Of a DNA stretch of 47,503 nt, positions 8,098 to 37,670 are shown piece by piece. The notes beneath the pieces are model-generated. The model had not been told where the DNA came from. It did not search any database and saw nothing but the letters and a program-made list of their open reading frames with translations. Each line of letters begins with the position of its first letter. Position 1 is the first letter of the stretch. Source of the DNA: an uncultured bacterium (lineage in GTDB: Bacteria; Cyanobacteriota; Vampirovibrionia; Gastranaerophilales; Gastranaerophilaceae); assembly GCA_902774905.1 (NCBI GenBank), contig CACYKF010000007.1:42604-90106 (forward strand), in the 5' to 3' direction. Both the position numbers and the translations under genes were made by a program.

Positions 8098-10062
8098 CTA
8101 TTCGTTACAACCAAAGGCGATTGTTATGTGTTCTCTTGGGTTGACTGCAGAGATTTTGTAACCTCTCGGATCAACAAGATATGCAAATTCATCCCCTGTA
8201 GTTTGGAATAAGCCCATTGTACCTGATACTGCGGTTCTTGTTACATCAACCGGTGCTTTGACTGTTTCATACAAGCCGTCGCCAAGACTTCTTGCTGCCG
8301 CCCCGAATTGACCTGAAAAACCGTGACCTAATACATAACCGGCATCATTTGTTACATTTTCGGCAGCGTTACCGACATTAGTCAATATACCGCCTGCAGT
8401 TCTGCCTACAATACCTATAAGTGAACCTGTCCATGTAAACGGCATTTGTACTAATCTTGCAACAGGGTTAAGATTTTTCTGTTTATTTACCTGAGCCTGT
8501 AAAATTTGTTTTGGCAATTTAGTTTTGCATTTGCCGTTTGTAATACTTGTAAACGCAAGTTTTAGGGCTCCTTTGTTGCATCCTGACGGTCTGATAACTT
8601 CAACGACCTGACCTGTTACCGTTGAGCCGCAAGGATATTTAACACCATTGATGGTTACATCTTCCAAAGTGTTTGCTCTGAAATACTGACCGACATGAGA
8701 TGATTTTGCATTAACCTGGTCAATCATAGACAATTTTAATGTAGGAATTTTAACTATTTCTTCCTGTTCAAGTAATGCTTTCTTTTCTATCGGACATGCA
8801 GGGCAAATGTTGTTTGCTGTCATCGGGTTCTTGTCATAACCAAGTGCAACTCTTGTATTTTGCATCATTGAAGCAATTTCTGCTCTTGTTGCATCACGAT
8901 TCGGCATAATCATATTTGGATTTGGACTGTCGCTTAAAGCACCGTTTTGAAGCGATTTTGCAACAGGTATTCTTGCCCAATTAGGAACTTTATTCCCATC
9001 AGCATATTTACTTAAAATCTGGTCTGCTTTGCAAGAATCTATATCACAAGTCATACCTTTTGAAATTGAGGTCAGTGCTTCAACTCTTGTAACAGGGTTG
9101 TGAGGCTTGAACGTGTGATTAGGATACCCTCTTAGCAAGTCTTCGTTAACGGCTTTTGCGATAGCAGGATTTGCCCAATTGCTTGTCGAAACATCAGAGA
9201 ATTTTGATGTTGTATGTCCGTCAGGGCACATATTAAACCCTTTAACAAGCATTGTCGCAAATTCGGCACGGGAAATGTTTTTGTTTGGTTTAAACATTCC
9301 GTCAGGATAGCCGACAACAACATTGTTAATCGCTAACTTGTCAATATCACAAGATGCCCAATAACTGTTCGGAACATCAGGAAACATTCCGCCTGTGAAT
9401 GCAGGAGCAGCAGCACCAGTTATATTTTCCTTAATGGTATAAGGGACTAAAGACTTTTTTACTGCATTAATTGAGTTTGCTGATTTGAAATCAATCGGGC
9501 AACCTTTATTTTCGCCCATATTTACACTAACACCATTGTTACATCTCGGTAACTCATTCAAACAAGGCATAGATGCAGCCGCACCTGTGATTTGGCTTTC
9601 AGTTTGAGTTGAAATTGTTGTTCCTGATATTTCAGAACTCAATCTTGATGCAGGACAACCTTTCATTGCGGTTTCAGTTGAAAAAATTGAGTTTGCAGGT
9701 TCTCCTACATAGTTGTTAGTACCGTAAATTGCCTGCGGATAGCCATAAACCTGTTTCATTTGTGAACTGTCAGGCTTTCCAGATTGAGGACACAACGCTG
9801 TTGACGGGACAGCAGGTTTTTCACAACTGATTTCGTCATTACATGGTGTTTTTACAGGACATGCTTTTTTCTTTTTGCAACCGCAATCCGCTTTTGCACG
9901 TTTGCATTTATTACATTGCGGTTTTGCACAGTCAGATGGCCCTGTCACAACAGGCAAAGCCTCATTTTGTGTACACGGGCAGGCAGCCATTGCACTATTC
10001 AAGGAACATGTTGCTATTCCAACAGCAATCGCCGCTGCCGCAGTTAGTTTTTTAATTGACAT
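8098..10062 (-). CDS. Secreted SLH-domain protein with Cys-rich N-terminus
   Basis: 654 residues. I place the start at 10062, where MSIKKLTAAAAIAV begins, because AGGAGG lies 5-8 nt upstream; an in-frame ATG 14 codons earlier has no such site. A Sec signal ends at NSAMA (about residue 26). Next is a Cys/Lys-rich segment (28-90, repeated C-x-x-C and CGCKKKKAC patterns). Three SLH repeats follow at about 226-278, 287-337 and 352-403; they show the FPDVP..YWA, GYPDGMFKPN and [ST]RAE pattern, the third being weakest. The C-terminal 200 residues contain a beta-type domain and a Gly/Ala-rich region with TGQVV and GRTAGGIL. SLH domains tether proteins to cell-wall polymers, or to peptidoglycan in cyanobacteria-type outer membrane proteins. 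A structural envelope role is inferred; the C-terminal domain is not recognised. Confidence 0.8.
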   Translation of the reverse strand: MSIKKLTAAAAIAVGIATCSLNSAMAACPCTQNEALPVVTGPSDCAKPQCNKCKRAKADCGCKKKKACPVKTPCNDEISCEKPAVPSTALCPQSGKPDSSQMKQVYGYPQAIYGTNNYVGEPANSIFSTETAMKGCPASRLSSEISGTTISTQTESQITGAAASMPCLNELPRCNNGVSVNMGENKGCPIDFKSANSINAVKKSLVPYTIKENITGAAAPAFTGGMFPDVPNSYWASCDIDKLAINNVVVGYPDGMFKPNKNISRAEFATMLVKGFNMCPDGHTTSKFSDVSTSNWANPAIAKAVNEDLLRGYPNHTFKPHNPVTRVEALTSISKGMTCDIDSCKADQILSKYADGNKVPNWARIPVAKSLQNGALSDSPNPNMIMPNRDATRAEIASMMQNTRVALGYDKNPMTANNICPACPIEKKALLEQEEIVKIPTLKLSMIDQVNAKSSHVGQYFRANTLEDVTINGVKYPCGSTVTGQVVEVIRPSGCNKGALKLAFTSITNGKCKTKLPKQILQAQVNKQKNLNPVARLVQMPFTWTGSLIGIVGRTAGGILTNVGNAAENVTNDAGYVLGHGFSGQFGAAARSLGDGLYETVKAPVDVTRTAVSGTMGLFQTTGDEFAYLVDPRGYKISAVNPREHITIAFGCNE

Positions 10063-10194
10063 TTTTAACCTCCTTGTGTTGTTCAAGTTTTTGTTTGATA
10101 ACAAAAACCTTTAAAAAACGAACTCATAGAAGATTATTTATATTTGATTGCATTAAAACATTAGCAATTTATACAGTCTGATAGGGTAGTTTGT

Positions 10195-16412: not shown

Positions 16413-16441
16413 TTGAATGATTGTCGCTAATGTGTTATAAT
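16413..16441 (+). promoter_or_regulatory. Promoter of the prepilin-S74 operon
   Basis: TTGAAT (16413-16418), a 17-nt spacer and TATAAT (16436-16441), with an extended TG-T directly before the -10. It lies about 40 nt upstream of the first gene's ATG. Confidence 0.7.
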
Positions 16442-16481: not shown

Positions 16482-18281
16482 ATGAAATCAGGGATTAGGG
16501 CATTTTCTTTAACAGAGTTACTGATAGTACTCGTTGTAATTGCTCTTTTGTTTGCGGCAATGGCTCCTATTGTAACAAAAAGACATATCGCCGAAACTCA
16601 TGAAACCGAATCCATCTGGAATTTTGTAACGGGTGATGCCGAGAAAAATGCTTATTTTGACCCCGGAAATGAAACATGGACTTCAAGCGTTTATATGGGT
16701 ATGGTGCCTACGACCGCAGATAATAATGCAGGGAAACTTGTTATTGATAATGGCAGTATTTCTTATGGAGGAAAAACTTACTATCCCCCTCAAATGCAGT
16801 TTAGATTTTCAAAGAACCCTCAACAACAAGGCAGAGGTTTAAATTCTGCCGTTCTATATTTTGATGGGTCTGATATTGTATTTGGTTCGTCTTTATCTCC
16901 ATATAGTTGTGAATATGCAACGATATACGGTCTTTCTAATTTGGAATCAGACATAAAAGCATTTTCATTATCAATATTGGGTAATAATGCAATGGGGCAG
17001 GCAAAAATTAGTGCTAAAGGTGGGGGTTCAAATCAACAGTATATTACTGCTGTCGGTCACAGAGCATTAAATAAACTCGGAACGGCAAATTCATCAAATA
17101 CTGTGAACGGCATCTATATTGGCTCAGGTGCGGGTGCAGGCGGTGCGGAGATTGATGCTGCGCCTACTGACAATGTTGTAATCGGTTACGGAGCGATGAA
17201 CAAAGAAGGTTCTGCTGGTTCTCACAATGTATTTTTAGGCGCACATACAGGAAACGGCTTCAATTCGACATCTGCATCATATAACACAATTGTCGGGTCT
17301 GTTTTCCCGGGAACAAGTGCTTCTTATAACACAATTGTCGGTTACGGGGTTTATACAAATGGTGACCCTGCCGTAAAAGCAATGACCGCAATCGGTTACG
17401 GTGCATGTAATTCAATTTCTGGAGCCAATAACGGTTCAAGAGTTTGTTTAGGCTACAATTCTGGGTATTCAACCAATAATACCCCATCTGTTTTTAATAC
17501 AGATTCAGGCGAGCATATTTTTATAGGCGGTAAGCCTCAATCCAATAATACAAGAGGTTTTTCAGGTCGTTCAATACTTGAAGTTCATAACAATACAATA
17601 AATTCTCAAACATACGGAAATGTTGTTATAAATTCAAATCTTGTTGTAAGGGGGAATTTTTATCCGGCTGATGAAAACGGCAAAGTTTCTTATAATGTCT
17701 TTACCGATACTCAATCCGGCGGTGCGGAAACAGCATATTACCGTTGCAGTAATGACGCATATCAAAGTATCTTAAACTATAATAATTATGTTTGTAAAGA
17801 ACTGACACCATCAAACCCAAAATCTGTTAATATGCTGATAAAAGGCGGTAATTGTTCAACTTCTGACGGGTACCCGAACGGCAACGGCTGCGCAAATGTC
17901 GTATCTTCTGACAGACGATTAAAAACTGCGATAACACTGAACAATGACGGTCTTAACAAAATCTTAAAACTCAGACCTTATAATTATACTTATAAAGATG
18001 ATGAAAAAACTCCTCAGGTTGGTGTTATAGCGCAAGACCTGCAAAAAGTGTTTCCTGATGCGGTATCAAAAGATAAGAAAGGGTATCTGAAGATTAGAAT
18101 TGAAGATATGTTTTATGCACTTGTCAATGCAGTAAAAGAACTTGCACAGAAACTTGAAGATATATCATCAAAAATTGTTAAGGCTAACAGTGATATATTG
18201 AGCATAAAGAAAGAACATCAGGATATAAATAAACAAATTTTGGTGTTAGAAAAACGAATAAAAAAACTTGAAAGGAAATAG
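16482..18281 (+). CDS. Prepilin-like protein with tail-fibre repeats and C-terminal S74 self-cleaving chaperone (paralogue A)
   Basis: 599 residues from the ATG at 16482; an in-frame TTG 18 nt earlier is less likely because the only GGAG lies between them. The leader MKSGIRA is followed by FSLTELLIVL, a type IV prepilin cleavage and methylation signal with Glu at +5 and a hydrophobic helix ending APIVTKR; residue -1 is Ala, not Gly. The middle (about 60-400) has loose repeats such as NVVIGYGAM, NTIVGYGVY and MTAIGYGAC, resembling YadA-head or tail-fibre beta repeats, then ILEVHN and NLVVRGNF. The C-terminal S74 domain begins at S476 in SDRRLK and contains VGVIAQDLQKVFPDAV, then a terminal coiled coil. 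In phage fibres this domain promotes trimerisation and then cuts itself off before the Ser, here releasing 124 residues. First gene of an operon with paralogue B, 6 nt apart. Surface fibre or adhesin is inferred. Confidence 0.8.
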   Translation: MKSGIRAFSLTELLIVLVVIALLFAAMAPIVTKRHIAETHETESIWNFVTGDAEKNAYFDPGNETWTSSVYMGMVPTTADNNAGKLVIDNGSISYGGKTYYPPQMQFRFSKNPQQQGRGLNSAVLYFDGSDIVFGSSLSPYSCEYATIYGLSNLESDIKAFSLSILGNNAMGQAKISAKGGGSNQQYITAVGHRALNKLGTANSSNTVNGIYIGSGAGAGGAEIDAAPTDNVVIGYGAMNKEGSAGSHNVFLGAHTGNGFNSTSASYNTIVGSVFPGTSASYNTIVGYGVYTNGDPAVKAMTAIGYGACNSISGANNGSRVCLGYNSGYSTNNTPSVFNTDSGEHIFIGGKPQSNNTRGFSGRSILEVHNNTINSQTYGNVVINSNLVVRGNFYPADENGKVSYNVFTDTQSGGAETAYYRCSNDAYQSILNYNNYVCKELTPSNPKSVNMLIKGGNCSTSDGYPNGNGCANVVSSDRRLKTAITLNNDGLNKILKLRPYNYTYKDDEKTPQVGVIAQDLQKVFPDAVSKDKKGYLKIRIEDMFYALVNAVKELAQKLEDISSKIVKANSDILSIKKEHQDINKQILVLEKRIKKLERK

Positions 18282-18287
18282 GATTAA

Positions 18288-20426
18288 ATGAAAGCGGTAA
18301 AAACTAAACTGATAACCGCATTTACACTTGCGGAACTTATGGTCATAATGGCGGTTATGACTGTGGTTCTTGCTGCTGTTGCTCCTATTTTCACATCAAG
18401 ATACTCAAATATTGCGCTTGATAATGTTTGGGGCTCTGTAGGGGCAAGTAATATGAATGATATTTATACTGATGCTCCGATTCGTTCTATGCTTCAGCAA
18501 ACCTTAATCGGTATTACACCGATTGATTTAGAAGATATTAGAAGAACATATCAGCCGTATTCAAAACTTATTATCCGCTCAGGAAATAAAATTGGCGGTA
18601 ACAAACTTCAAAAACAGATTGAATTTAGATATAATGGTACAAAGTATGGCTATTTGTTCGCAGGCAATTCTAATCTTTTATTGGGAAGTAATTATAACAA
18701 TTTAAGTTTTACTTATGTTCAGCCTGATTTAAATGATATTACCGCAATGAAAATCGGTAGCGGCGCAATGGGGAATACTGCTCTTGGCAGAAATGCTTTA
18801 GATTCTCTTACATCTGGTATATATAATACTGCATTCGGATTTGAGGCTTTGAAAAGTTTAACAACAGGCAGCGCAAATACTGCACTTGGTGTCGGGGCTG
18901 GTTCAAGTCTTACGACAGGCATTGGTAATGTATTTGTCGGTCGTAATTCTTATAATGCTGCAACCGGTGATTATAATACTATTATCGGCAATAATACTAC
19001 ATCAAAATCAAGTACAAGTAATTATACAACAGCAATCGGAAATAATATCAATGTCAAGGGGGATTACAATGTCGCAATAGGTGACAGTTCCAATGCAGGC
19101 GGATATTATAACACCGCAATAGGTTATGGCGCATTACTTTCAGCAAATCCGACAGGTGATTCATATTCAAATTTCAAATACAATACAGCAATCGGTTATA
19201 ATGCTTGTAAAGGTATAGGTTCTTCATCTCAATATACAACATGTATTGGCGGTTATGGTGTTGATACTTCTGCCATGGGTTCTACCGCACAATCATTTTT
19301 TACTGATTCAAAAGAACGTGTTCTTATCGGCAGGCCAACTTCTGCATTTAACGGAGCGGCAACTTTAGAAGTTCATAATCTTACATCAGCAGGCAGCAAA
19401 TACCCGTATCCGAACGGTATCAGCGGAGCACCCAATTTAGGTGATTCATCAGTTGTGGTAAACGGCAATTTGATAGTCAGAGGTCAGACATATATGGTTG
19501 GGCGTTCCCCATTTCCTATGACACCCTCTGCATCTGTAAATACTTATGCAAATACTATTTCTTTAATGGGATATAAGTTATACAAAGAATCTGCTCTGAC
19601 GCATAAGCCATTGATTGGTTATGACGGAAGCGAATTTACCCAAAGAATTAAAAATGCCCAAAGTTATATGCGTGAGGCATATACAGGCAGAGAACATTGT
19701 ATTTGTAATTACTCTTGCTCAAATTCGACTAAAGATTATGCCGGAGGTTCAGGTTATTCAGGGCGAGACTCTTATGATTGGTCATACTTGGCATTTAAAA
19801 ATTACAACAATATCATAGATAATTCTTTTGGCGGTTACAATTATTTTTGGGGGCACTCACCCCACAAATGCGGATCTTCTTATAATGATACCGCTTATAC
19901 CTCTGCCAATATAGAACTTGATGGAGGTCATAATCTTACTGACGGGGGAACAAATTCTGTTGCTACACAGTTGATTACGGGGGGATCTTGTTGCCCTATA
20001 CTTACTCCTGTAGGTATAAGGCGAACTGATGACTTATCAGCAGGTGTAACAAGTGATTTACGGCTTAAAAATGTTGGTCAGCCATTTGAAAAAGGATTAG
20101 AATTTTTATCTAAACTAAAAGTTTATAATTTTACTTTTAAAAATGATAAACAAAAAGTTCATCAGGTAGGTGTTATCGCTCAGGACTTAAAACGCATATT
20201 CCCTGATTCCGTTTCAAAAGACGAGAAGGGATATTATAAAATACGCAGAGATGAAATGTTTTATTCTGCCGTAAATTCTGTTAAGGAATTATATGAGAAA
20301 ATTTCTGATTTAGCAAAAAGGGTTGTAACTGATGTTGAGCGAATTGTCATTCTGAAAAAAGAAAATAAAATGTTGAAAGATAAATTAATTATGTTATCAA
20401 AAGAACTTGATAATTTAGAGAAGTAA
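18288..20426 (+). CDS. Prepilin-like protein with tail-fibre repeats and C-terminal S74 self-cleaving chaperone (paralogue B)
   Basis: 712 residues, the longest of the three. Leader MKAVKTKLITA precedes FTLAELMVIMAV (Glu +5, Ala at -1) and the helix ends APIFTSR. The repeats are the clearest of the family (about 160-340): TALGRNAL, TAFGFEAL, TALGVGAG, TAIGNNI, VAIGDSS, TAIGYGAL, TAIGYNAC, about 14-22 residues apart, much like YadA-type head repeats. The block RVLIGRP, ATLEVHN, SVVVNGNLIVRGQTY is shared with both paralogues. Unique to this copy is a segment of about 150 residues (430-580) rich in Cys, Tyr and Gly (HCICNYSC, SCCP). S589 of SDLRLK starts the S74 domain (VGVIAQDLKRIFPDSV) plus coiled coil; 124 residues would be released. 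Translated with paralogue A, ending at a strong terminator. Confidence 0.8.
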   Translation: MKAVKTKLITAFTLAELMVIMAVMTVVLAAVAPIFTSRYSNIALDNVWGSVGASNMNDIYTDAPIRSMLQQTLIGITPIDLEDIRRTYQPYSKLIIRSGNKIGGNKLQKQIEFRYNGTKYGYLFAGNSNLLLGSNYNNLSFTYVQPDLNDITAMKIGSGAMGNTALGRNALDSLTSGIYNTAFGFEALKSLTTGSANTALGVGAGSSLTTGIGNVFVGRNSYNAATGDYNTIIGNNTTSKSSTSNYTTAIGNNINVKGDYNVAIGDSSNAGGYYNTAIGYGALLSANPTGDSYSNFKYNTAIGYNACKGIGSSSQYTTCIGGYGVDTSAMGSTAQSFFTDSKERVLIGRPTSAFNGAATLEVHNLTSAGSKYPYPNGISGAPNLGDSSVVVNGNLIVRGQTYMVGRSPFPMTPSASVNTYANTISLMGYKLYKESALTHKPLIGYDGSEFTQRIKNAQSYMREAYTGREHCICNYSCSNSTKDYAGGSGYSGRDSYDWSYLAFKNYNNIIDNSFGGYNYFWGHSPHKCGSSYNDTAYTSANIELDGGHNLTDGGTNSVATQLITGGSCCPILTPVGIRRTDDLSAGVTSDLRLKNVGQPFEKGLEFLSKLKVYNFTFKNDKQKVHQVGVIAQDLKRIFPDSVSKDEKGYYKIRRDEMFYSAVNSVKELYEKISDLAKRVVTDVERIVILKKENKMLKDKLIMLSKELDNLEK

Positions 20427-20455: not shown

Positions 20456-20980
20456 TTATACATCATTTTGTTTATTTGCTCTGTGATTATATTCTTGTTC
20501 GTACTGCCCCTCTTTAAAGGCATGCTTTCTTTCAATTGCAACAAGTGTCCCTACTGCAGCAAGCCCGAGCAAGCCTAATAGTTTCTGTCTGCCTGATGTT
20601 TTAGCAAGTTTTTCGCAACCGGTTTTAAACAAATTTGCTAATCCTTTTGCACCTTTTGCAATATATTTTTTAATTCCGCTATTTGATTTTGCTGCTTTTT
20701 CAAAAATTTCAACACAATCTTTATATACGCTTGCAATTTTTGACAAACTCTTGTTCAAGCCTGTGTTCCAATTAAAACATTTTCCTTTTGTTGCGCAATT
20801 AATTGCCTTGTACCCTGCATAAGTTGCTACTCCGAGTGCACCTGTTTCTAATGTCGCTCTTGCACTGTTTACTGCTCTGTGTGCGGTGCAATCTAACCTG
20901 TTGCCAAAAGATCCTTTTGAAGAATCAAACATTGTGAAAATAACAGGAGAATTCCCGTAACCTGTGTAAATGTTACTCAT
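20456..20980 (-). CDS. Small unknown protein with two hydrophobic segments
   Basis: 174 residues from the ATG at 20980, which has GGTAGG about 6 nt upstream; an ATG six codons earlier lacks a site. I do not recognise a family. The sequence starts MSNIYTGYGNSP without a Sec signal and has a moderately hydrophobic Ala/Gly stretch (about 45-62, GALGVATYAGYKAI), a basic amphipathic helical middle with four Cys overall, and a hydrophobic helix near 139-157 (LLGLLGLAAVGTLVAI) followed by a charged tail. It could be a small membrane-associated protein. It sits between the prepilin-S74 operon and metK, convergent with the operon; a link to the fibres is only positional. Confidence 0.55.
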   Translation of the reverse strand: MSNIYTGYGNSPVIFTMFDSSKGSFGNRLDCTAHRAVNSARATLETGALGVATYAGYKAINCATKGKCFNWNTGLNKSLSKIASVYKDCVEIFEKAAKSNSGIKKYIAKGAKGLANLFKTGCEKLAKTSGRQKLLGLLGLAAVGTLVAIERKHAFKEGQYEQEYNHRANKQNDV

Positions 20981-21093
20981 AAATAACCTACCTTTCATTA
21001 ACCATTAGTAACCTACATAACCTATACTTCTATAAAGTATTTTTATTTGTAAAAATTGATATATAGATTATTTATGAGTTTACATTTTGCAAC

Positions 21094-22568: not shown

Positions 22569-24362
22569 TTATTTATTTTTCAATTTGTTAACTCTTGCTG
22601 TCAGCAAATCTACCTGTGTTTTGAGTTTAGAATTCTCTTTTTCTGCTTCTGTTATTTCTTTTTCAAGAGAAATAATACTTTTGGTTAATGAAACAATTTT
22701 TTCGTTTAATTCTTTAATTGAATTAATAACAGCATAAAACATTTCATCAAGTTTAATTTTAAGAAAACCGTCGTCACCTTTAAAGACCGAATTAGGAAAT
22801 ACTTTTTCTAAATCTTGGGCTATTACACCGACATGACGCTTTTGTTTTTTGTCGTTTTTAAATTTGTAGTTATAAACTTTTAATTGTTTTATTTTATCTA
22901 ATCCGTTAGTATTTTTTGATAAAATATTTTTTAATCTTCTGTCACTTGTTATAGGTTCAAGTGTGGCACATTCTCCTGCATTAGAAAAATTATAAGTAAT
23001 TTGATTTGCGGCACAACTTACATCTTTATTTGTGCCAAATATATTATTTTGATAATAAAACGGGTATAATATATTCCCTATTGTAAAATATGTTTTGCCT
23101 CTCACAATCAGATTCCCGTTAATTATTGTTGTTGCATTTGACTGAATTACGGGGTTATTAATCAGTTTGTTATTCCCATAACCTCCGGAATTATGAATTT
23201 CCAAAACTGCATCTCCACCATATCTTCCTGAAGATTTCCAAGTACTGTCAGTCAAAGAATTATTTTTATTATTAAGGTTTGGATTAGAACCAATGTATGT
23301 TCTTGGCGTAGCATCATTTTTATCAAACGCAAGTTCTGTGTTTACAGGAGTATTAGAAGCAGGTCCTGAATTTGCACCAATACATGTTTTATAGGACTGT
23401 CCTGTAATCCCTGCGCATGCATTGTATCCTATTGCAGTATTGTACCCACCTGTTGTAAGGGCTCCTAACGCTCCTGAACCAATTGCAACATTATATTTAC
23501 CTGATGTAACACTACTTAATGCTTTATAGCCGACAGCAACATTATATTGGAAATCTCTGCTACCCTCACAAGTAGGACACTCATCTCCAAAACCTGTGTA
23601 TGCACCGATAAGTGTGTTATAATCACCTGTCAATGACTGCGAATGATAACCTATGAGCGTACTAAAACGAGTTTCTGCTTCACTGCCTGCGTCATAACCG
23701 ATAAAAGTATTATTGTATCCGGCAAGGTTAGCATATCCGGTTCTTGCCCCAATTGCGGTGTTATCGTCGCCCGAATATGTATTTGGCAATGAATCGTTAC
23801 CAAAAGCGGTATTATTATCTGCTTTTGAATTAATATCATTATAATCTTTTATTCCATTCATTGCATTAAAACCAAAAGCAACATTGTTGCTCGGATATGT
23901 TGTATCGCTTTCTTTTCTTTGAAGCATAGGGAAATTAGCCCCAAACAGCAAGTTTGTATTATCTGCAATAAATGTAGCAGCTAATTGTCCCGGGTCATTA
24001 AAATCATTTCTGCCATATCGCAGTTGTAATTGACGCTGTATAAGATTATTTGCAACATAACCGGAGCGAATAATAACTTTAGATAACGGAGTATAAGATG
24101 ATTTAATATCATTTTCGGAATCAGGGGTGGTACCTATATATATACCACCTAAATAATTGTCGGAAATCGGTTTGTAATATGTATTCATTGGTCCTGCCAT
24201 GTAATTACGGCTTGACCACATCCAAAATTCCTGTTTTGCTGCTGAATTTCTTCTGCGTTTTGTTACAAAAGGTGCAAAAGCGGCAAACAATATCGTAAGT
24301 ACCAAAAGTACAATCATAACTTCTGCAAGTGTAAATGCAGGTTTTTTCTTTGTTCGTGTCAT
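22569..24362 (-). CDS. Prepilin-like protein with tail-fibre repeats and C-terminal S74 self-cleaving chaperone (paralogue C)
   Basis: 597 residues. I choose the ATG at 24362 (MTRTKKKPA|FTLAEVM) because GGGAG lies 5 nt upstream and the leader then has prepilin length; the open frame begins 27 codons earlier without such support. Glu at +5, Ala at -1, hydrophobic helix ending APFVTKRRR. Repeats (about 150-350) include VAFGFNAM, TAFGNDSL, TAIGARTGY, TFIGYDAG, TLIGYHSQ, VAIGSGAL and TAIGYNAC. The block TYIGSNP, AVLEIHNSGGYG, TTIINGNLIVRGKTYF matches paralogues A and B. The S74 domain starts at S473 in SDRRLK with HVGVIAQDLEKVFPNSV, and ends in a coiled coil; 125 residues would be released. It is transcribed alone, opposite in direction to A and B. 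Confidence 0.8.
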   Translation of the reverse strand: MTRTKKKPAFTLAEVMIVLLVLTILFAAFAPFVTKRRRNSAAKQEFWMWSSRNYMAGPMNTYYKPISDNYLGGIYIGTTPDSENDIKSSYTPLSKVIIRSGYVANNLIQRQLQLRYGRNDFNDPGQLAATFIADNTNLLFGANFPMLQRKESDTTYPSNNVAFGFNAMNGIKDYNDINSKADNNTAFGNDSLPNTYSGDDNTAIGARTGYANLAGYNNTFIGYDAGSEAETRFSTLIGYHSQSLTGDYNTLIGAYTGFGDECPTCEGSRDFQYNVAVGYKALSSVTSGKYNVAIGSGALGALTTGGYNTAIGYNACAGITGQSYKTCIGANSGPASNTPVNTELAFDKNDATPRTYIGSNPNLNNKNNSLTDSTWKSSGRYGGDAVLEIHNSGGYGNNKLINNPVIQSNATTIINGNLIVRGKTYFTIGNILYPFYYQNNIFGTNKDVSCAANQITYNFSNAGECATLEPITSDRRLKNILSKNTNGLDKIKQLKVYNYKFKNDKKQKRHVGVIAQDLEKVFPNSVFKGDDGFLKIKLDEMFYAVINSIKELNEKIVSLTKSIISLEKEITEAEKENSKLKTQVDLLTARVNKLKNK

Positions 24363-27215: not shown

Positions 27216-29351
27216 TTATCCGTTTTGGTCGAATTTCATTGTCCTTTCTATGTTTTTATTCATTACTCCCTTAATAACATCATATTCTGTTTGGAGGGCG
27301 GAATGCTCTGTATCAATATTTTTGAGCTGAAGGTCAAACATACTGTCTTTTTGTTTAATATCATTCATTGCTCTGTTATATTTTGCTTCTGCTTTTGAAA
27401 CCGCAGAAGAGTTATCTGTTTCTTCATAAATATTAGAACAAGATTTGTAGTCCATTGATACCCAGTTTTGAGAAAGGTCAACCTGTTCCATAGATACAAG
27501 CCCGCTTTCAAATGCGTATTCAAGCCATTCTTGTGATTTTGCAAGTCCGTTTTCTAAAACTTTGTATCCTTTTTGCATTCTGTTGAATAAGTTTGTCAGC
27601 CACTGCGCTTTTGCATCGGCATTCCCAACATTTGCAGGATCATTTTTATCAACCCATGCATATTTCGGCTCCCCGAGGACATCAAGCATCAAATCTGCCA
27701 TATATGATTCTAAAACGCTTTTCATATATGAGTTTACTCCGTTCCTTGTCAATCCTTTTACCTTTATCATCTCATTGTAATCAACAAGACAATTTGCTTC
27801 TGTAGGGATTGAAACTGAAACTCCATAAACTCCAAAACCTGCGATTGCATCATTATACCCTTGTAATGTCGGGTTACTTTGGTGTCCGTTGGCATAATCA
27901 TAGTAGTTAAATGCACCTTCGGTATCAAGTACATATTGAAGATATTGCTCTGTTAATTGTTTGTATACTGATTCTTTTGTTGAATTCGCTCCAATAGAAA
28001 CTTTACATACATAATAATCTTTTTCATGACTTGGGTCATCTTCATATATATTTACATATCTGTACTGAACCTCACCGCCGTTAACATTTGCATAAATTTG
28101 ATCAATAACAGATGCTGTAACAGACGGATTATTTATAAAATTATATTCTGTAACCGAACTTACATTTGGTAGTATCATAGAAGAATCACTTGAAGTGATT
28201 TCGTTATGTTTACCAATAATTTTTTGGTAATCATATTCTTTTAATATTGTAGTTCCGTCTGTATCATATATAATACGGTGTTCAGGTTCACTCAAAACAT
28301 CTGCATTAAATGAAATTGTAAATGTTGGAGAACCACCAAAAGTATAAGAGTTTCCTTTGTTATAAGTTTGCGTATTGCCGTTATAATCAATATAAGTTCC
28401 GGTTGAAGTTGTTGGAGTCTTAGGAATTTTAGTTTCTTCAGATGACAAACCTGCATATCCCGGACGAACTGAACTATCTGTCAATGAACTTACTTTTTTA
28501 CGAAGTAATACTTCGTATGTTTTATTCAGATAGTTTTTACCGGTCGGGTTATTACCTGTAAGGTAGTTCAATGCAAACTTTGCTCCGCCATCTTCTGAGT
28601 CAGAAATTATACCACTATTTGCTGATAAATTACCGGCAAGCAGTTCTCTTTTTACAGTTGCAGCATCCGGTAACTTTGCTATTGCGTTTGAAACATTTTC
28701 TTCGTTTATGTCACTGTTTGTGTTGTCTAAAATTTCCTGACGTAATTCAGGCGCAGCATTTTTGTATAAAGAAAGCACTTCAGTATAGTAATTTTGTGCA
28801 GCCTGTTCATAGTTTAGTCTTTCAATCGAAGCGTCTTCACTTAAAGAATTGAGATAAAGTTGTTTCAAATCTTCATTTGACATTCCGCTAAACAAATTTC
28901 CAAGATACTGGTATGACCCCGTACCATAAAAATCCTGAATTTTCTTTGTTAAATTACCGCTTGTTTCATCAAAGAATGTTGTTTCCCATTCAAGACCATG
29001 TGCTTTCAAAAATCCTTCAAGATTATTACTTGTATTTTTAAATATTGCGGCATCTTCTTCGCTTACCATAATCATTCCGGCAGAATTTACAATGCCGTAT
29101 TGAGTGTTATATTGACTGTATTGAGTTAATGCGTTAAATGTCAATGCCTGCTTTTGTGCTAAACCGTCTGTTCCTACATTAGAAAACATCATTTGGGCAT
29201 TATTTAAAGCAGAAACATATTCATCGCTTGCCTGCGCACTTTGAGTTGCAAGGCGCATTTTAGCGTTGTTAATGGTCTGCGAGCGCAGTTCATTGTCTGC
29301 GAGTCTTGCAGTTATGGTCAGTAATCTTGCTTGTGATGCTGCCAATCCCAT
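27216..29351 (-). CDS. Unknown large protein with MGLAASQARLL N-terminus
   Basis: 711 residues, family not assigned. There is no Sec signal. The N-terminal 120 residues are helical and Ala/Gln/Asn-rich (MGLAASQARLLTITARLADN, then NNAKMRLATQSAQASDEYVSAL), a style I associate with uncharacterised proteins of gut Melainabacteria and some anaerobes. The middle is Asn/Ser/Tyr-rich and low in hydrophobic segments, like an extracellular protein. Near residues 575-600 (AWVDKNDPANVGNADAKAQWLTNLFNRM) and at the C-terminus (about 655-711) it becomes helical again, ending in a likely coiled coil. AAAGGA lies about 10 nt before the ATG. It could be a secreted or filament-associated protein exported without a classical signal; this is inference. 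Confidence 0.5.
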   Translation of the reverse strand: MGLAASQARLLTITARLADNELRSQTINNAKMRLATQSAQASDEYVSALNNAQMMFSNVGTDGLAQKQALTFNALTQYSQYNTQYGIVNSAGMIMVSEEDAAIFKNTSNNLEGFLKAHGLEWETTFFDETSGNLTKKIQDFYGTGSYQYLGNLFSGMSNEDLKQLYLNSLSEDASIERLNYEQAAQNYYTEVLSLYKNAAPELRQEILDNTNSDINEENVSNAIAKLPDAATVKRELLAGNLSANSGIISDSEDGGAKFALNYLTGNNPTGKNYLNKTYEVLLRKKVSSLTDSSVRPGYAGLSSEETKIPKTPTTSTGTYIDYNGNTQTYNKGNSYTFGGSPTFTISFNADVLSEPEHRIIYDTDGTTILKEYDYQKIIGKHNEITSSDSSMILPNVSSVTEYNFINNPSVTASVIDQIYANVNGGEVQYRYVNIYEDDPSHEKDYYVCKVSIGANSTKESVYKQLTEQYLQYVLDTEGAFNYYDYANGHQSNPTLQGYNDAIAGFGVYGVSVSIPTEANCLVDYNEMIKVKGLTRNGVNSYMKSVLESYMADLMLDVLGEPKYAWVDKNDPANVGNADAKAQWLTNLFNRMQKGYKVLENGLAKSQEWLEYAFESGLVSMEQVDLSQNWVSMDYKSCSNIYEETDNSSAVSKAEAKYNRAMNDIKQKDSMFDLQLKNIDTEHSALQTEYDVIKGVMNKNIERTMKFDQNG

Positions 29352-34463: not shown

Positions 34464-37400
34464 ATGGCTTTAGATGGCGATTTAATCAGAAAACAAAATA
34501 TTAATACCCAAGGTGTTGGTGAAACTACGACAACTCCTGAGACTACTGTTGCACCATCTCCTGCACCTACGCCTATTCCAGTTGTGACGACATCTACCAG
34601 TGAAGTTAAGAAACAAACTCCAATATCTGATGAAGCTCGTGCGCAAGCAGAAGAAGAAGCACAAGAGACAAGACAAGCACGTGCAGCAGCGCATAGTGCT
34701 GATGTAGGTGCTGTTGCTGTTGTAAAATTAAAAAATTCTATTATTGATTTTTTAAAGAATAAAGGTAAAGAAGGTACTGATACCGAGATATATGAGTATC
34801 TGCGAGAACTAAAAAATACACAAAAAATAAATAATGAAGAATTGCAATTATTAGCAGAATACGAAAAGTCAATTGAAGACGGGACATTTAAGCCCGACCC
34901 CCAAAAACAAGTTGACGGGACTCGCACAACTGCATCTGAACAAAAAACACCTGCTTCAAAAAATGTTATTGATGAAAAATATGTTGATATATTAAAGGAT
35001 GAAAATGCAACTCCTGAGCAGAAAGTAAAAAACTTACTTTCTGAGTATTATGCTAAAAATGACCCTGAATTTTCAAAATTATCAAAGGAAGAACAAGAAA
35101 AGTTTATTGAACAAAAAATTAAAGATGATATATCAAAACTAAACCCTGATAATGCAAATTTATCTGATAAAGATATTAAAAAGTCTTATATGAAGATTGC
35201 ACTCCTAATTGTAGAAGCTGAAAAAGATAACACTCATTTGGATGACTTGCTTAGTAAACCAGCCAATGAAATAAATAATTTGGTTAATAAAGGTAAAAAA
35301 GAAATCTTTGCATTATTTATTGAAAAATTGCGAAATGAAAAACCTGAAGAAGTATTTAGAGATTCAATAAGGATGTATCTTTCCGTTACTGACGAAAATT
35401 TTGCCTCTAAAAGTAAAAATGAACAAAGTAAAATTGTTGAAGATACAAAAGAAAAATTTAGTAATTATTTTAACCTAAAAGGTACAACTCCTGAAACAAA
35501 GGAAAAATTGAAAAATATAGGTATTAATGTCCTACAATACCTATCTGACAATAATATTAGCATTGAAGAATTTTCAAAAATGTCTGAGAACGATAAAGAT
35601 ATAATCTTATATGATGCTTTTAATAACAAAAGAATATATAACAACTTAGACGTAAAAACGAGAAAAATAGTTGATAATTATTCAACTTTAAGATCGTCTT
35701 GTTTGGCTTTAGGTGACGGGGAACACACTTATGGCGAAGTTTATGAATACTTAGATAAATTGAATAAAAATAACGAATTATCAGATGAAGAATTAGCTCT
35801 TTATAATCAATTAAAAGAAGATATTAAAAATAACGTATTTGATGCTAATGAAAAAGTCTCATTTAAAAGTAATATTATTAAGGCATTATTGTCTTCGGAT
35901 GTTGAAAGTAATGATGCTATATCTGTAACTAATTCTCTTGAAGAATACATAAAAGATACATTAAAAGAAATAAAACCCAATACAGATTTAAGTGACGAGC
36001 AAATAAGTGATTTAATTGCCGCAGCTAATAATGATGCTGATGTAGATCAGACCAATATTATAATTAAAGCCTTTAAAGATGCAGGCTGGTCTGATGAAAA
36101 TATTCAAAATATCCTTGATAGAATTAATATAGAAAAAGTAGTTTCTCATAGCGATGATAGTCAGGGTGTTGGTACAGCAGCGTTGTCAGATTTTGTGAAT
36201 ACTTATAGTTCCCAAGAAAGAATTAACAAGGTTGCACACATTGTTGAAAATATAATGCAAAATAGAAGTGACCAGTTTGGCACTGATTATTTGATAAATT
36301 TGAATAATGATAGAAATAGGGTGTTTACTGATGCGGCTACCCGAGGTATTAATAACGATGCATCTCGTAGTAATGAGCGTAAGTTAAGTATATATACGAT
36401 GGCCTTTGCCAATTCGGCCCCAGAGCGTAGGTCGGTAATCGCTCAAAGTTCTATTGAAACAGCCTCAAAAGAGCAAAAATTGTACTATGGCAGTGAATAT
36501 GCACAAATTAAGGATTCTTATGTAACGCAGGGATTAGCAGCCGCTACTTATAATGAAACTGACAGTCAAGTAAAATCACAGTTAAATTCCTATGTAAGTT
36601 ATGCCATTAAAAACAACGGTTATAGTGCGGATGAGGTGAAGAATATCAATACTGCTCGTGAAACAGGTCAAACTTCTTATGAAAGAAATGCATCTTCAAC
36701 CGACAGCACAAATTCTTCATCAAAAACTTCTCAATCAGCAACAAATCCGGTAAATAATAATTCAAGTTCAACAAGCAAAACTTCGACTGCTTCATCTGCA
36801 AGCAGTACAAAAGTCAATATCTCTCCGGCAAATTCCAATACTGTTTCTCAGATGAAAGCACAACTTGCCCAACTTCAGTATGAACATTCTATCGCATTGA
36901 GAGATAAAGCACTTGACGGGTTACAAAATATAATTGATAAAATTCAAAATGACCAGCAGGTCAGAGCGCAAAAACAGGCAGAACTTGCAGCAAAAGAAGC
37001 AAAAACAGACGCAGAAATTTCTCAGTCTATAAAAGAAGCCGAAACAAAAAGTGCTCAAGAACAGAAAAAAGCAGAAGAACAAGTTGCAAAAGAAACTCTT
37101 GCCCAAATTGAAGAACAGGAACAACTTGAAAAGAAATATAATATTTCTATTGAAAAAATTAACAAACTCAAAAGTGCTGCTCGCAACGGCGATTTAACAA
37201 CGATTTATACAGAATTAGGCACAATAAGTGCAGATGCTCAAAAACATTTTGTTCAGTATCTTTCAAAAAAAGATACCGCAACGATAATCGGCTTTATACG
37301 CAACCGCTCTACAGATAAATCTTTGATAAGAGAATTATGCCGTCTTAACCCGGGACTTATCAAATCACTTGATGCAAGTATGCTTATGGATTGTGGGATT

Positions 37401-37670
37401 GCAAAAGCCGATATAATCAAATATTCTGACTCTCATCAATTAGCAGTGCTGATGTATGATTTAGCAAAAGTCGGAAATACTCGCGAACTTAAATTGTTCT
37501 ATGAAGCATTGGGCGATGATGCTCCTAATGTTGCTTCGAACATTTCGCAACCTGTTCCTGGTGATGACAGGTACTTTGCAAATTTGTATCGCAATATGAG
37601 CACTGCAAGCAGTAAAGTTGCGATGAGATATGATATTGATAAAAAAGTTCCACGAGAACTTTGGGGCTAA
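34464..37670 (+). CDS. Large unknown protein with internal repeats and coiled coil
   Basis: 1068 residues, no signal peptide, no recognised domain. A Thr/Pro-rich start (20-50) and an Ala/Glu helix (55-85) precede a charged alpha-helical region with internal duplications: 105-145 (TDTEIYEYLRELK...NNEELQLL) matches 422-462 (TYGEVYEYLDKLN...SDEELALY) at 13 of 41 positions, and 195-226 resembles 305-336. Residues about 735-800 are Ser/Thr/Asn-rich and probably disordered; 800-895 is a Gln/Glu/Ala/Lys coiled coil; 895-1068 is a separate helical C-terminal domain (INKLKSAARNGDLTTIYTELG onward). The ribosome binding site is poor. Composition changes along the gene suggest modular assembly. A structural or secreted scaffold is possible; no function is claimed. 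Confidence 0.5.
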   Translation: MALDGDLIRKQNINTQGVGETTTTPETTVAPSPAPTPIPVVTTSTSEVKKQTPISDEARAQAEEEAQETRQARAAAHSADVGAVAVVKLKNSIIDFLKNKGKEGTDTEIYEYLRELKNTQKINNEELQLLAEYEKSIEDGTFKPDPQKQVDGTRTTASEQKTPASKNVIDEKYVDILKDENATPEQKVKNLLSEYYAKNDPEFSKLSKEEQEKFIEQKIKDDISKLNPDNANLSDKDIKKSYMKIALLIVEAEKDNTHLDDLLSKPANEINNLVNKGKKEIFALFIEKLRNEKPEEVFRDSIRMYLSVTDENFASKSKNEQSKIVEDTKEKFSNYFNLKGTTPETKEKLKNIGINVLQYLSDNNISIEEFSKMSENDKDIILYDAFNNKRIYNNLDVKTRKIVDNYSTLRSSCLALGDGEHTYGEVYEYLDKLNKNNELSDEELALYNQLKEDIKNNVFDANEKVSFKSNIIKALLSSDVESNDAISVTNSLEEYIKDTLKEIKPNTDLSDEQISDLIAAANNDADVDQTNIIIKAFKDAGWSDENIQNILDRINIEKVVSHSDDSQGVGTAALSDFVNTYSSQERINKVAHIVENIMQNRSDQFGTDYLINLNNDRNRVFTDAATRGINNDASRSNERKLSIYTMAFANSAPERRSVIAQSSIETASKEQKLYYGSEYAQIKDSYVTQGLAAATYNETDSQVKSQLNSYVSYAIKNNGYSADEVKNINTARETGQTSYERNASSTDSTNSSSKTSQSATNPVNNNSSSTSKTSTASSASSTKVNISPANSNTVSQMKAQLAQLQYEHSIALRDKALDGLQNIIDKIQNDQQVRAQKQAELAAKEAKTDAEISQSIKEAETKSAQEQKKAEEQVAKETLAQIEEQEQLEKKYNISIEKINKLKSAARNGDLTTIYTELGTISADAQKHFVQYLSKKDTATIIGFIRNRSTDKSLIRELCRLNPGLIKSLDASMLMDCGIAKADIIKYSDSHQLAVLMYDLAKVGNTRELKLFYEALGDDAPNVASNISQPVPGDDRYFANLYRNMSTASSKVAMRYDIDKKVPRELWG

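Follow-up and report, generated by a model that had tools for sequence, protein, structure and literature searches.

The three genes A, B and C described here probably encode prepilin-type fibre proteins that carry a self-removing S74 trimerisation chaperone at the C-terminus. They lie within one analysed stretch of 47,503 nucleotides (the window), and each protein very probably cuts off its own S74 domain. Self-cleavage by S74 domains is well studied in phages, in MYRF and in one bacterial predator. In A, B and C the S74 domain sits on prepilin-led proteins. The features on which this reading is based are collected in Table 1.

Table 1. Features of genes A, B and C, numbered from the first letter of the window; a slash marks the prepilin cut.
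Feature	Position	Strand	Remarks
Gene A, prepilin-leader/repeat/S74 protein, 599 aa	16482..18281	+	ORF opens at TTG 16464; ATG 16482 preferred
Prepilin leader of A, MKSGIRA/FSLTELLIVLVVIALLFAAMAP	16482..16574	+	TIGR02532 17.7 bits, over cut-off 16.3; N_methyl 23.3 bits, also over cut-off (whole-genome scan)
Five short N-[TVYL]-x-x-G repeats in A, spaced 15-25 aa apart	17103..17393	+	
S74/ICA core of A, ~75 residues	17907..18131	+	Pfam PF13884 3e-17; AlphaFold pLDDT 89; best fold MyRF ICA Z 8.4
Predicted nucleophile Ser of A, cut expected directly before	17907..17909	+	Equivalent to T5 Ser1264, endoNF S911, MyRF S587
Predicted catalytic Lys of A (Ser+5)	17922..17924	+	Equivalent to T5 Lys1269, endoNF K916, MyRF K592
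C-terminal coiled-coil helix of A, length-variable part of release fragment	18132..18278	+	
Gene B, 712 aa, architecture as in A plus insert upstream of Ser	18288..20426	+	Starts 6 bp after A
Prepilin leader of B, KLITA/FTLAELMVIM...	18288..18386	+	N_methyl scores 16 bits and stays under the cut-off; Phe and Glu5 do not vary in the alignment
S74/ICA domain and coiled coil of B, 124 aa	20052..20423	+	Ser 20052-20054, Lys 20067-20069
Gene C, 597 aa, architecture as in A and B	22569..24362	-	Convergent to A-B
Prepilin leader of C, KKKPA/FTLAEVMIVLLVLTILFAAFAP	24261..24362	-	Pfam N_methyl reaches 21.3 bits (cut-off 21.2)
N-[TVYL]-x-x-G repeats in C, mostly 17 or 23-31 aa apart	23421..23951	-	Similar to the phage tail-spike family PHROG 4636
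S74/ICA domain and coiled coil of C, 125 aa	22572..22946	-	Ser 22944-22946, Lys 22929-22931

The total lengths given for the three proteins in an earlier note on this DNA hold if A begins at its ATG and C at the internal ATG 24362. B is longer than the other two because of the insert upstream of its Ser. Promoter-like sites lie directly upstream of the starts of A and C (16413-16441 and 24421-24393), such sites being no commoner here than in shuffled sequence. The neighbours are housekeeping genes, namely dnaX, typA and metK, recognised by reading the sequence, and a valyl-type class I tRNA synthetase. A, B and C carry the only S74 domains of the whole genome, and a protein search with C matched only these three, revealing in this genome no paralogue that shares the fibre body and lacks S74. 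Within the window's genus they form three ortholog groups, and other species of the genus carry three S74 genes in the same arrangement. Several further proteins were seen in the window. Between B and metK lies a 180-aa protein without a Pfam match (20456-20998, minus strand), and two large proteins, of 711 aa (27216-29351, minus strand) and 1068 aa (34464-37670, plus strand), likewise lack one. A 668-aa protein with S-layer homology domains (8098-10104, minus strand) is in the style of SLH outer-membrane proteins and fits a two-membrane cell.

Pfam, a profile search of the PDB and the predicted fold all identify the C-terminus of each of the three proteins as a Peptidase_S74 domain (intramolecular chaperone, ICA). 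The Pfam profile PF13884 matched A, B and C with E-values of 3e-17, 4e-13 and 1e-17 and with scores of 62.9, 49.8 and 64.6 bits against a curated cut-off of 22. A profile built from 100 relatives matched the MyRF ICA (2e-14), a phage tail fibre (9e-14) and a long-tail-fibre distal subunit (9e-11) in the PDB, as well as the GA-1 neck appendage (6e-7) and the T5 L-shaped fibre (7e-7). AlphaFold modelled the last 154 residues of A with a mean pLDDT of 89, and the best structural match of this model is again the MyRF ICA (Z 8.4, rmsd 3.3 over 108 residues). Endosialidase F (endoNF) follows at Z 6.1; the chaperones of endosialidase F, GA-1 and T5 rank below MyRF, interspersed with unrelated long-helix matches, and Foldseek gave MyRF, GA-1 and endosialidase F as top ranks. 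An identity as trimeric autotransporter adhesins was rejected: a Pfam scan with E up to 1 found no YadA_anchor match, and the C-terminus consists of S74 and coiled coil.

The catalytic pair of the domain is strictly kept. The motif reads SDRRLK in A, SDLRLK in B and SDRRLK in C, with Lys at Ser+5 in all three, and the invariance of both residues noted earlier extends to 162 of 162 domains of relatives. The set is made up of distinct S74 C-termini. Nearly all belong to one bacterial family, in which 71 of 146 sampled genomes contain S74 domains, and a few come from bacteria further removed. In an alignment of 100 sequences with a mean column identity of 23%, Ser and Lys are the only invariant columns. 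The loci were collected by the Pfam profile, from which dyad loss should not have hidden family members. Members without the dyad are unlikely to have been missed because the scores lie mostly far above the cut-off. Viral relatives, which were fetched by a motif excluding the dyad, show both residues in 104 of 104 cases. MyRF S587/K592 is the equivalent of endosialidase S911/K916 (PMC8326128).

At the codon level the nucleophile is less uniform, being TCN in 144 sequences and AGY in 18. The tree demands at least eight switches between these classes, and every such switch must go via another residue or a double change. In one species group (G000, RUG13741, RUG12313, RGIG4922, G262 and G335) B and C both use AGY for this Ser while A uses TCN, through parallel change or else through gene conversion. 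Purifying selection acts on the S74 core, with dN/dS of ~0.02-0.22 among genus orthologues where dS is unsaturated and measurable.

Taken across these sequences and the known mutants, the invariance of the dyad is best explained by selection for cutting. The dyad is needed for cutting and not for folding or oligomerisation, because dyad mutants of T5 and MYRF fold or oligomerise uncut. The T5 S1264A protein folds and crystallises with its chaperone attached, uncut, and loses the ability to compete with infection (PMC4690869). The MYRF Lys mutant K583A keeps oligomerisation and loses cutting (PMC3742443). Since the known dyad mutants lose cutting and keep folding or oligomerisation, an invariant dyad points to self-cleavage. 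Moreover, self-cleavage is proven for a bacterial chromosomal S74 protein, Bd3182 of Bdellovibrio, which is cut at S782 and blocked by S782A (PMC10769870). The fragment predicted to be released from A, B and C is basic, with a mass of 14.4-14.6 kDa and a pI of 9.5-9.8.

The length of this fragment tells a different story. Recounting from Ser to stop gave 124, 124 and 125 residues in A, B and C, exactly as reported before, and this constancy had been taken as a sign of self-cleavage. Among the 162 domains, however, the shortest distance is 73 and the longest 176 residues (median 126, s.d. 14), with the dyad constant throughout; length constancy was therefore rejected as evidence for cutting. 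A conserved Asn opens the long helix; in the 142 sequences that could be anchored on it, its distance from Ser is 74 residues in 119 and 73-75 in 136. The coiled coil after this Asn spans 19 to 102 residues and holds nearly all the length variation, and in a single genome the Ser-to-stop lengths of paralogues can lie as much as 35 residues apart. All 47 copies in the window's genus measure 124-128 residues, and if three non-genus copies are drawn at random, their lengths lie within one residue of each other in only 0.75% of cases. The agreement within the genus is thus not due to chance. A, B and C are nearly equal because a fixed core (74±1) is followed by a variable coiled-coil tail inherited within one genus; as read from these comparisons, the cause of the equal lengths is common descent, with no constraint on fragment length. 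The earlier conclusion that self-cleavage is retained and under selection survives by way of the dyad, the purifying selection and the dyad-mutant literature, and fails as a deduction from constant length.

At the other end of the proteins stands a class III prepilin leader, a feature that the earlier note leaves unmentioned and that weighs most for the function. Its Phe+1 and Glu+5 are invariant in 51 aligned sequences, and the residue at -1 to the cut is A or G in 121 of 124. Of 134 complete relatives at least 125 have the motif; among the nine that did not pass the filter, several (e.g. L060 and L082) carry it all the same. TIGR02532 lies over its cut-off in A and C and was not reported for B, in which the leader is weakest. 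A second family of the order has three prepilin-led S74 genes as well, while in S74 proteins from other families of the phylum no prepilin leader was seen where the N-terminus was complete. Viral S74 relatives gave nine regex matches, none of which was a hydrophobic prepilin helix on reading. The genome encodes an assembly machinery in a secretin-PilB-PilC cluster (PilB 3e-125, secretin 5e-41, with an adjoining PilC-like gene), a prepilin peptidase PilD with a clear A24_N domain (8e-35), two PilT-like ATPase matches and a total of 26 N_methyl-type matches. One large Cys-rich prepilin-led protein (L151, contig C7 37313-40381, open frame 718 aa) lies 4-5 kb outside the window start, and the genome-wide S74 scan found no match there. 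Some genomes of other genera in the family (G020, G188 and G338) contain 11-12 S74 domains, which suggests a local expansion of the fibre repertoire.

Between leader and S74 domain lies a body of N-[TVYL]-x-x-G repeats, often 17 residues apart, with similarity to phage tail-spike families. A phmmer search of this body against the PDB gave one weak match. The full-length monomer model, which is of low confidence (pLDDT 63), has an N-terminal helix of just 23 residues and lacks a globular pilin domain predicted with confidence; searching with this poor-quality model for the fold of the repeat body returned only S74 matches. The case for incorporation into a pilus is weakened by the short helix and the lack of a confident pilin head in this low-confidence monomer.

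Several other explanations deserve consideration. The narrow range of 124-128 residues in all 47 genus copies might mean that fragment length is itself selected, for instance because the released piece has a function of its own. This is highly improbable given that lengths elsewhere run from 73 to 176 residues with the dyad unchanged, and that paralogues within single genomes lie up to 35 residues apart. The S74 domain might instead be kept solely as a trimerisation chaperone in a lineage where cutting no longer occurs. Such a state is compatible with the length argument, which offers nothing against it, and the upstream Arg sensor of the phage mechanism is not conserved. In the absence of cutting, however, the dyad should drift, and it is instead found in every one of the 162 domains despite the codon-class switches, although T5 and MYRF dyad mutants fold or oligomerise; loss of cutting is thus considered quite unlikely.

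According to a published InterPro survey (PMC8179133), S74 would be a displayed peptidase, a protease module borne by a modular pilin and directed at other proteins. The closest relatives in fold and sequence are, however, self-cutting intramolecular chaperones and not proteases of other substrates; the chain around Ser runs on into the fibre, and the position preceding Ser is unconstrained, with 16 residue types occurring. No S74 protein is known to cut in trans, and a displayed peptidase appears very unlikely. Alternatively, the genes could be remnants of prophage tail fibres and not genes of the cell, as body and S74 domain resemble phage tail fibres and 325 phage records match part of C. 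This origin is scarcely tenable in view of the housekeeping flanks (dnaX, typA, metK and the valS-type gene), the shared arrangement of three S74 genes in other species of the genus, the low dN/dS and the viral relatives without a prepilin leader. Over the peptidase reading, the evidence favours a self-trimming chaperone.

For the self-trimming chaperone, the following course of events is proposed. A, B and C would be inserted into the inner membrane by their class III leaders and processed by PilD, exposing the repeat-rich fibre outside the cytoplasm. Three chains would then trimerise via the C-terminal coiled coil, and a trimer is indeed very likely; the fibre would fold thereafter. Folding of the trimer would bring Ser beside Lys(+5), and Ser would attack the bond preceding itself. 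The basic fragment of ~14.4-14.6 kDa would be shed, and the trimeric fibre would stay anchored by its N-terminal helices. The fibre might finally be presented by type IV pilus or type II-type machinery as an adhesin; an adhesive function has about even chances, and presentation by a pilus is a tentative proposal. The phage T5 mechanism uses an Arg of the neighbouring chain upstream of Ser (PMC4690869), whereas no upstream Arg is conserved among the relatives of A, B and C, and a phage-like Arg sensor was rejected on this ground. The trigger may be more like that of MyRF, with no stalk contact with the reaction centre, because Arg is absent from the 40 residues before Ser in 66 of 161 sequences. 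The missing Arg is not fatal to cleavage, since MyRF cleaves without stalk contacts.

The proposed proteins share features with several known systems. Endosialidase F and T5 pb1 have the same Ser-Lys dyad at +5, a C-terminal trimeric coiled coil and a cut before Ser, whereas the released coil is longer in the bacterial than in the viral set, the median Ser-to-stop length being 126 residues against 97. MYRF ICA offers the closest solved fold, in a membrane-anchored S74 protein that does not need stalk contacts. Its anchor is C-terminal to the cut and the N-terminal part is freed, whereas the N-terminal anchor of A, B and C would mean that only the chaperone is freed. The S74 subgroup of Bdellovibrio MAT fibres (Bd3182, PMC10769870) likewise comprises fibre proteins encoded on a bacterial chromosome, with an SDxxxK motif in a C-terminal S74 domain. 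Bdellovibrio MATs have a signal peptide followed by a conserved ~130-aa beta-rich domain, whereas A, B and C have a prepilin-type leader and a body of short N-T-x-x-G repeats. CofB and TcpB, homotrimeric minor pilins, resemble the proposed proteins as trimeric modular pilins at the pilus tip (PMC8179133). At the domain level, the modular type IV pilins with an S74 module are the same, with a prepilin N-terminus and a C-terminal S74. CofB and TcpB themselves are not known to have an S74 domain or to cleave themselves.

The combination of prepilin N-terminus and S74 (IPR012902-IPR030392) ranks among the most frequent modular-pilin architectures in a published survey, which predicted the module to be a peptidase (Raynaud et al. 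2021, PMC8179133). That survey did no S74 work; the present analysis adds the reading as a self-removing chaperone, the repeats between the modules and the conserved three-gene cluster. No paper testing the self-trimming-chaperone reading of this architecture was found in literature searches. It is conceivable, if doubtful, that with the help of a phage-type chaperone a type IV pilus or pseudopilus here receives an adhesive tip that is homotrimeric and self-trimmed, in which case S74 would be a removable tool of assembly, absent from the mature filament, and would not be a displayed peptidase. If the domain removes itself, the published class of 'peptidase' pilins needs to be read anew.
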